A model generated the notes under the pieces. It was not told the DNA's origin. It ran no database searches and worked only from the letters and a program-made list of their open reading frames with translations. The position numbers were made by a program, and so were the translations under genes. From Halomarina pelagica (GTDB taxonomy: Archaea > Halobacteriota > Halobacteria > Halobacteriales > Haloarculaceae): a DNA stretch of 64,000 bases. Below are positions 3,533 through 50,078 of this stretch, in pieces (the first letter of the stretch is position 1; every line of letters starts with the position of its first letter). Location of the stretch: positions 1,798,001 through 1,862,000 of the forward strand of contig NZ_CP100454.1 of NCBI RefSeq assembly GCF_024228315.1, in the 5' to 3' direction.

Positions 3533-3921
3533 GAAGCGCGTGGCTGCGGGCCGTAAGCCCCCTTCTGTTCTATCCGGCATTCGGCTGAGCACCCGCGGCC
3601 GTGGTCGGGCTACCTTGTCGCCGCGGGCTTGCACCGGCGAGGGTTCGCCGTTCCATCCGTTCTCTTCCATCGGCGCGAGCGGGCGGAGCCCGCTCGCGCG
3701 AACCGCGACGCCTCGGTCGAGCCGTCGCGCGGCCCTCGGTGGGTTAGCTCCCCTTCCTCGCGGTCGGGTTCGCGCACCTCATCGGTCCGGAAGAGGGGTC
3801 TCGTTTCTGTTCCAGTGCCGGCGGTCTCCCGCCCCGGGCTTGCGCCCGGTCGCCTGCCCGACCGGTGGGGGGACTTTCCTCGTGCGTCGCACGGGGGCCG
3901 GGCACCCGCTGCCACCGCTGG
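3533..3921 (-). ncRNA. rnpB: RNase P RNA
   Basis: The minus strand carries the universally conserved GAGGAAAGTCC (complement at 3871-3881) near the 5' end, GCAAGCCC-type sequences, and ACAGAAGGGGGCTTA near the 3' end (complement around 3553-3567). The termini pair as helix P1: complement of 3905-3919 (AGCGGTGGCAGCGGG) with complement of 3535-3550 (CCCGCAGCCACGCGCT). About 389 nt is in the range of archaeal type A RNase P RNAs. It is the catalytic RNA that removes 5' leaders from pre-tRNAs. Its promoter must lie within or next to the last codons of pncB, whose stop is only about 33 nt upstream. Confidence 0.93.
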
Positions 3922-36940: not shown

Positions 36941-37167
36941 ACTTCGACCCCACGAAGGGTCGTCTGAAACGTGCCGACACCCTGGGAAGCACTACCGACT
37001 AAGGGCTGCTTCAACCCCACAAGGGTTCGTCTGAAACTAGCGGCTTGAGTCCCTGGTCGGGCTCGTCGAGGACCCTTCAACCCCACAAGGGTTCGTCTGA
37101 AACTCCGCAACCGGTGGCGAGTCTTGTTCAACCGGAAGCTTCAACCCCACAAGGGTTCGTCTGAAAC
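36941..37167 (-). CRISPR. Four-repeat CRISPR array without cas genes
   Basis: 30-nt repeats at 36941-36970 (degenerate, 5 mismatches), 37008-37037, 37074-37103 (one mismatch) and 37138-37167, with spacers of 37, 36 and 34 nt. On the minus strand the repeat begins GTTTCAGACGAACCC and ends GTTGAAGC, the type I-B repeat of haloarchaea. The degenerate repeat at the low-coordinate end marks the leader-distal end, so transcription should run on the minus strand from the right, toward the beta-CASP gene. No AT-rich leader is evident to the right and no cas genes lie in the window, so it is probably an orphan or decaying array. Confidence 0.92.
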
Positions 37168-46232: not shown

Positions 46233-46594
46233 GGTGTATCCAGGTCTGCGTGGGCGCGCGAGAGCGTCGCCACTCACCGCTACCGAACGCGGACGAGGCG
46301 ACGGCGAGGCGCGCCGTCGACGGACGTGCGGACGGAACCCGCATAAGTGCTCGCGGACGCCGACGTCAGCAGGTGACGCGACCGTTACCGGCGAGACTCC
46401 TCGCTTCGAATGGAGTTAGCACTGATCGTTGCTACACGGAGTACAAAAGTTACATTCTCGTGCGATCTTCACGTCCGGCCGGTCGAAAGAGAGCCAAGGG
46501 CCGGATTTGAACCGGAGGAACTCGTTACACTCGTTCCAGGGTTCAACCCCTCGTATGGTGCACAGATCCCGAACCGCTGTTCGGGATCAGAAGA
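46233..46594. other. Intergenic region downstream of the rRNA operon
   Basis: 362 nt between the LUD gene start and tRNA-Cys, with no gene. It carries a 23-bp partial copy of the tRNA-Cys 3' end at 46493-46515, and an inverted repeat GATCCCGAAC...GTTCGGGATC at about 46566-46589 just after tRNA-Cys that may act as terminator of the rRNA transcript. Confidence 0.55.
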
Positions 46595-46618
46595 AGCCAA
46601 GGGCCGGATTTGAACCGG
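46493..46618 (-). repeat. Partial copy of the tRNA-Cys 3' end
   Basis: A 23-bp sequence (beginning gccaagggccggatttgaac on the plus strand) lies at 46596-46618 inside tRNA-Cys and again at 46493-46515 with 103 bp between the starts. As with tRNA-Lys, it consists of the acceptor 3' strand plus the T-arm, so it resembles an attachment-site duplication. No integrase is visible nearby. Confidence 0.7.
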
Positions 46619-46670
46619 CGTGATCACGCTCTGCAGGCGTGTGCGTAAGGCCAGACTCTGCCACCTTGGC
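46595..46670 (-). tRNA. tRNA-Cys (anticodon GCA)
   Basis: Minus-strand cloverleaf: acceptor GCCAAGG pairs CCTTGGC with U discriminator at 46595; anticodon stem CACGC/GCGTG encloses CTGCAGA, giving GCA (Cys); T-arm CCGGTTCAAATCCGG. No intron seen. It sits about 85 nt after the 5S gene, the usual last position of haloarchaeal rRNA operons. Confidence 0.96.
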
Positions 46671-46754
46671 ACGCAGACGTCTCTACCGGGAGGACGTGAA
46701 TAAGCGTAGCGGTCTGGAGCGACCGCTCACGGGAAGTCGAATATAGGGTATGAA

Positions 46755-46984
46755 TGGAAAGGCGGCGAACCACCAGTTGCGGGCGTCGACAGTCCGCTCA
46801 CCGATTCCACCGGGACGAACCCTGCGTGTACTACGGTTCACGGACCTCGGCCCGTACTTGGAGCCTCTTGCGAGACAGTTTTCCCAGAGGCTCTCGCACT
46901 CCAGTACTCGCTGGAACGCAGGCGGGCTTATCTTCCGTGTTCGGGATGGGTACGGGAGTTGCCCCGCCGCTATGGCCGCCTTAA
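46755..46984 (-). rRNA. rrf: 5S rRNA with an about 108-nt insertion
   Basis: From 46984 the minus strand reads TTAAGGCGGCCATAGCGG and continues through the conserved ACTCCCGTACCCATCCCGAAC and GATAAGCCCGCC, up to GAGCCTCTGGGAAAA (about 46879). The expected continuation GGTTCGCCGCC, which pairs with the 5' end to close helix I, is found only at 46771-46760. The about 108 nt between (roughly 46773-46880) are extra. Total length is about 230 nt. An insertion of this size at this place is the known feature of Halococcus morrhuae 5S rRNA (231 nt). Ends are estimated to within a few nt. Confidence 0.9.
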
Positions 46985-47032
46985 CGCCGATTCGTGGAAT
47001 CGAACCACGCTAAGGACCACTATCGGTCAGAT

Positions 47033-50078
<3,046 letters not shown>

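Follow-up and report, generated by a model that had tools for sequence, protein, structure and literature searches.

The single 5S rRNA gene detected in Halomarina pelagica belongs to the Halococcus type: a 105-nt expansion segment separates helix V from the 3' strand of helix I. Our reading as a whole, which we consider quite probable, is that this only detected Halomarina 5S keeps the segment in the mature molecule and that the tip of the segment most likely makes a specific contact. The basic finding is already known down to the genus Halomarina: Stepanov and Fox (2021) list the expansion segment in four genera, Halococcus, Halalkalicoccus, Halomarina and Halodesulfurarchaeum (PMC7812874). 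Their set includes Halomarina, and the structural type is the same, but it comprised four genera, a tree rooted on Haloferax and an explanation by horizontal transfer, whereas the present analysis covers ten genera, uses an outgroup-rooted tree and describes a conserved tip. The wider and deeper distribution, the conserved tip and the quantified fold are new here.

The expanded 5S rRNA gene and its operon

The window is the whole stretch of 64,000 nucleotides that was analyzed. The features that concern the 5S gene are the following.

46758..46984, minus strand, 5' end at 46984: expanded 5S rRNA gene (about 227 nt), identified by an RF00001 match to its 5' part, by helix I complementarity and by the same gene in congeners
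46772..46876, minus strand: 105-nt expansion segment between helix V and the helix I 3' strand, covariance model match of 123.6 bits
46864..46875, minus strand: hairpin A, UCUC-GCAA-GAGG, with a covarying stem (CCUC/GAGG, ACCC/GGGU) and a mostly GNRA loop
46773..46861, minus strand: arm B, a long imperfect stem of several helices with compensatory changes at most stem pairs
46805..46832, minus strand: conserved tip of arm B, AGUACACGCAGGGUUCGUCCCGGUGGAA, with 94% mean identity in 10 genera and 21 of 28 positions invariant
46865..46983, minus strand: 5S called "complete" by Rfam, with a false 3' end that falls inside the insert
47084..50020, minus strand: 23S rRNA of the same operon, upstream of the 5S
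46595..46670, minus strand: tRNA-Cys, downstream of the 5S

As the first-pass annotation had stated, the 5' strand of helix I (AAGGCGGC, 46982-46975, minus strand) lacks a partner where a 5S gene normally ends, and the partner (GCCGCCTT, 46766-46759) lies beyond the normal end of a 120-nt 5S. The archaeal 5S core is conserved from helix I to helix V, with loop E, and the gene belongs to RF00001; the match spans 46983-46865 only (77 bits), and its 3' end is forced falsely into the insert. Truncated annotation of archaeal 5S genes is the same type of error that was described by Stepanov and Fox (PMC7812874).

The operon has the order 16S-tRNA-Ala-23S-5S-tRNA-Cys. A second, normal 5S copy, which the first-pass annotation had named as a reason to doubt its reading, is absent from the 4.6-Mb genome as far as detected: there was a single 5S match, along with one 16S copy, and the expanded type is thus the sole 5S type found. 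Because no other 5S was found, this gene is functional by default, and it is a real gene of a known type.

Downstream, the 3' end of tRNA-Cys is repeated perfectly over 24 nt (46492-46515 and 46595-46618), 103 bases from the gene's own copy, a trace as left by an integration or excision event or a partial tRNA duplication. Elsewhere in the window, the archaeal RNase P RNA (3542-3913, minus strand) has an 85-nt stretch left unaligned against 7 positions of the Rfam model, which may be an expansion specific to the lineage. Three CRISPR-DR24 direct repeats (Rfam; 37008-37167, minus strand), about 65 bases apart, are a very short array or a remnant.

The insert and its relation to the Halococcus type

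The insert is bounded by ...GGGAAAACU, the end of helix V, and GGUUCGCCGCC, the 3' strand of helix I. It measures 105 nt (46876-46772), which corrects the first estimate of about 108; the insert of Halococcus dombrowskii has 108. The distance that separates the core motif from the 3' end is a constant 76 nt in ordinary haloarchaea, compared with 181 nt in the gene of the window. The insert occupies the same place in all seven Halomarina genomes with a detectable 5S, the window genome included, while an eighth genome, 73% complete, yielded no 5S. Because of this shared position and the contrast between 181 nt and a constant 76 nt, the insert is not a chance feature. The same expanded 5S gene stands on the Halomarina halobia PSR21 chromosome (NZ_CP119992.1).

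Halococcus-type segments were taken to be about 104-112 nt long and to lie between helix V and helix I (archaeal 104.1/105), and H. pelagica has 105 nt at that site. Alignments, covariation and a model match with an E value of 9e-25, from a model that contains the window insert itself, show the same type in sequence and fold.

The H. morrhuae 5S with its 108-nt insertion was sequenced directly as RNA in 1981 (Luehrsen) and is the only 5S in the cell (PMC7812874); cryo-EM showed a four-way junction, an unchanged core and a flexible arm (Tirumalai 2020; PMC7530397). The first-pass comparison with this insert was sound: the Halomarina insert lies at the same site, between helix V and the helix I 3' strand, its sequence can be aligned with that of Halococcus (H. 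dombrowskii was tested), the two-hairpin fold is the same as that predicted for Halomarina, and the expanded form is the sole 5S type in the genome. The two differ in that Halomarina has 105 instead of 108 nt, the 3' side of arm B being 3 nt shorter, and stems of other sequence, and in that the Halomarina insert is known from genes alone. The expansion segments of bacterial 5S rRNAs (Thermoanaerobacterium and others) likewise add a large module to an intact 5S core, but they are of other structural types and at other sites, e.g., the bulge of helix III at positions 52/53 (PMC7812874).

Other origins of the insert were considered and rejected. The region 46740-47000 gives no Rfam match except 5S, even at E values up to 5, and a tRNA-like reading of GGGUUCG..CCC was dropped for lack of any non-5S Rfam match. 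As for a mobile element, the insert occurs only once in the genome, the tip pattern is absent from viral contigs and no phage matches the insert. The flanking AACUG repeats could be read as a target-site duplication; however, in lineages with an altered helix V (CCAAC/UUG, CCAUC/GAUGG; the latter in the f11 family described below) the left repeat is altered along with it, and the right repeat could pair with a CCA of the arm itself and, in several lineages, with helix V too. Structural constraints thus appear to account for the repeats.

Fold of the arm

RNAalifold, applied to a MAFFT alignment of 27 distinct inserts, gave a short hairpin and a long arm. Double compensatory changes occur at 16 of the 26 pairs in this alignment (10.6 in shuffles), and double-change cells number 128, compared with 40.6 in shuffles; none of 500 shuffles was as high as 128. 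When pairs were counted without refitting, 97.9% of the cells were paired, compared with 80.8% in shuffles, and pairing fell to 30-58% when the partner was slid by 1-3 columns. Taken singly, the sequence from H. pelagica shows only a moderate gain in folding over its shuffles (z -2.1 to -2.6). Hairpin A is closed by a GCAA loop in most lineages and by a GAGA loop in g87 and the f11 family.

The suggestion that the insert may form its own domain is borne out by this covariation-backed hairpin and arm, which also fit the published four-way junction with helix V and helix I. In the proposed arrangement, the segment would be added where helix V meets helix I and would leave the 5S core intact; the short, mostly GNRA hairpin and the long arm would complete a four-way junction, and the arm would project from the central protuberance.

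Distribution among haloarchaea

A covariance model of the insert was used for the survey, and the insert was found in 34 of 391 Halobacteria genomes (10 of 86 genera, five GTDB families). Within the GTDB family of the window genome, 15 of the 146 genomes, belonging to 3 of the 22 genera, carry it. The bearers are Halomarina; Halocatena, including 'Actinarchaeum', which resolves taxonomically to Halocatena; Halococcus (the 5S at locus L066 is identical to that of H. dombrowskii); Halalkalicoccus (genome G194 has a plasmid in common with H. jeotgali B3); a Haladaptatus-like clade (genome G427 has a plasmid in common with Haladaptatus sp. QDMS2); g23, which is probably Halodesulfurarchaeum, by exclusion; and the further genera g11, g87, g79 and g86. 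The bearers include a deep-branching, MAG-like family, f11 (G374, G446 and G321; loci L141-L143). In a literature search, neither Halocatena nor Haladaptatus was reported to have the insert.

The sampled genomes that lack the insert have ordinary 5S genes wherever a 5S was found. Outside Halobacteriales, a sample of 393 genomes of the phylum, searched with strict filters, gave no match. Pattern matches in Natrinema and Haloferax contigs were assembly-gap duplications, and those in bacteria were due to chance or to a normal 5S followed by a stray match.

Evolutionary history

A tree of the RNA polymerase subunits B'', B', A' and A'' was rooted on ten non-haloarchaeal genomes. The f11 family is the sister of all other sampled Halobacteriales, with 100/100 support in a smaller, careful RNA polymerase tree. 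A discrete character points the same way: in the other sampled Halobacteriales, and not in f11 or most outgroups, the RpoA' match is split by an insertion near model position 166. The f11 genomes are drafts of about 2 Mb, below all other sampled Halobacteriales, without the RpoA' insertion that the others share.

The first-pass annotation had proposed that the insert dates the lineage, and this did not hold: the bearers are spread over five GTDB families, and their union in one clade is rejected by the RNA polymerase proteins (AU p 9e-34, six changes) and by 23S rRNA (p 0.011; three changes, on a weakly supported backbone). Halomarina and Halocatena are sisters that may share one inherited insert, and there the dating is perhaps valid.

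Stepanov and Fox proposed horizontal transfer for Halomarina and Halodesulfurarchaeum (PMC7812874). Transfer of the segment, the 5S or the rRNA operon between unrelated haloarchaea is a serious contender, to which we give slightly less than an even chance, and it is compatible with a functional arm. It would account for the polyphyly on RNA polymerase proteins, and the 23S tree needs only its three changes, which would fit an insert that moves together with the rRNA operon. The inserts of Halococcus, Halalkalicoccus and g87 differ by 7-9%, compared with 16-18% for their RNA polymerases. Two H. dombrowskii plasmids, NZ_CP095007.1 (L039) and NZ_CP095009.1 (L040), each carry tRNA, 23S and expanded 5S genes, and such plasmid rRNA operons are a possible vehicle for transfer. 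Against transfer, insert divergence rises with host divergence (Spearman 0.71, with pairs that are not independent), the g11 and f11 inserts have no close donor, the deepest sampled family bears the insert, and none was found in viral contigs or phages. The two plasmid rRNA sets are nearly identical and have the same nucS and TATA-binding-protein neighbors.

The bearers do not form a single clade, and the insert occurs in the deepest sampled family; an ancient insert with several losses and/or exchange of rRNA operons is thus at least as likely as the published segment transfer. The history that we favor is an old insert with several losses and some rRNA-operon exchange. Some 23S sites associate with the insert (0.88, compared with a 95% limit of 0.82 in a shuffle of genus labels), which probably reflects shared ancestry. 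At window positions 49823/49816 and 49431/49420 in the 23S gene, which are two likely base pairs, bearers and other genomes differ beyond the genus-label shuffle.

The conserved tip

With one representative for each of the ten genera, mean identity is 94% in the 28-nt tip, 62% in the rest of the insert and 90% in the 5S core. In the f11 family the stems are almost wholly changed, yet the tip of G374 is identical letter for letter. Deviations from the tip occur in g11 (AGCC for AGUA) and in one Halomarina species, G002 (L055), whose insert has 104 nt and several changes in the otherwise nearly invariant tip. AGUA opposite GAA in the tip may resemble the bulged-G motif (loop E, sarcin-ricin), from which G085 and G002 deviate.

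The stems are held by base pairing and the 28-nt tip by sequence, and for this reason the tip is most likely the site of a specific contact. Sequence constraint at the far end of the arm is what a contact site would be expected to show. The contact could be with 23S rRNA in the vicinity of the 5S, with a ribosomal protein or with a trans factor. We lean slightly towards a functional contact by the tip, and docking of the conserved tip on a partner is the interpretation that the sequence pattern favors; the conservation suggests that the arm has a role and is not just baggage that the ribosome tolerates.

The alternative is passive expansion, in which the arm is retained with no function and its stems are kept only to spare 5S folding. 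In the H. morrhuae map most of the flexible arm is not resolved and no docking partner is seen (PMC7530397), and most haloarchaea do without an arm, as 34 bearers among 391 genomes show; both points agree with passive expansion. However, the tip, which is farthest from the core and least needed for core folding, exceeds every other part of the insert in conservation and equals the core in this respect, and its conservation spans the distance between the deepest sampled families. We therefore regard passive expansion as rather unlikely. The first-pass statement that the ribosome tolerates a large extra arm holds insofar as the arm is kept and tolerated in Halococcus (PMC7530397, PMC7812874), but "tolerates" may undersell an arm with a tip as conserved as the core.

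Probable retention in mature 5S rRNA

The 105-nt segment would be transcribed with the rRNA operon and stay in the mature RNA. Retention in mature 5S and the four-way junction were shown for H. morrhuae (PMC7812874, PMC7530397), and by extension from that species we consider retention in Halomarina nearly certain. The size of the insert and its position inside an rRNA gene would also suit an intron or intervening sequence that is removed from the RNA. This is very improbable, because the insert is present in the directly sequenced H. morrhuae 5S RNA (PMC7812874), so that the intron reading is already refuted for Halococcus, and because the fold model predicts two hairpins at a multiway junction rather than a bulge-helix-bulge splice site. 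The chance that the gene is a pseudogene or an assembly artefact, with a normal 5S elsewhere, is negligible, given the single 5S found in the genome, its operon context, the identical structure in all congeners with a 5S and the compensatory changes in the insert.

Significance

Expanded 5S genes are cut short by standard 5S models, which is a practical warning for annotation. The wider distribution alters the evolutionary account of the insert. Since the same large arm is present in some relatives and absent in others, and must work where it belongs to the sole 5S, the haloarchaea offer a natural experiment in ribosome growth. The near-invariant tip is a precise target for finding the arm's partner, if there is one, a question that comes from the 2020 cryo-EM paper. 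As a tentative proposal, on which we would not wager even odds, the expanded 5S goes back to the last common ancestor of Halobacteriales, or close to it, and was lost repeatedly, often by rRNA-operon replacement, with the near-invariant tip acting as a docking module. If this is true, the arm would be an optional but functional part of the ribosome, and not a recent Halococcus curiosity.
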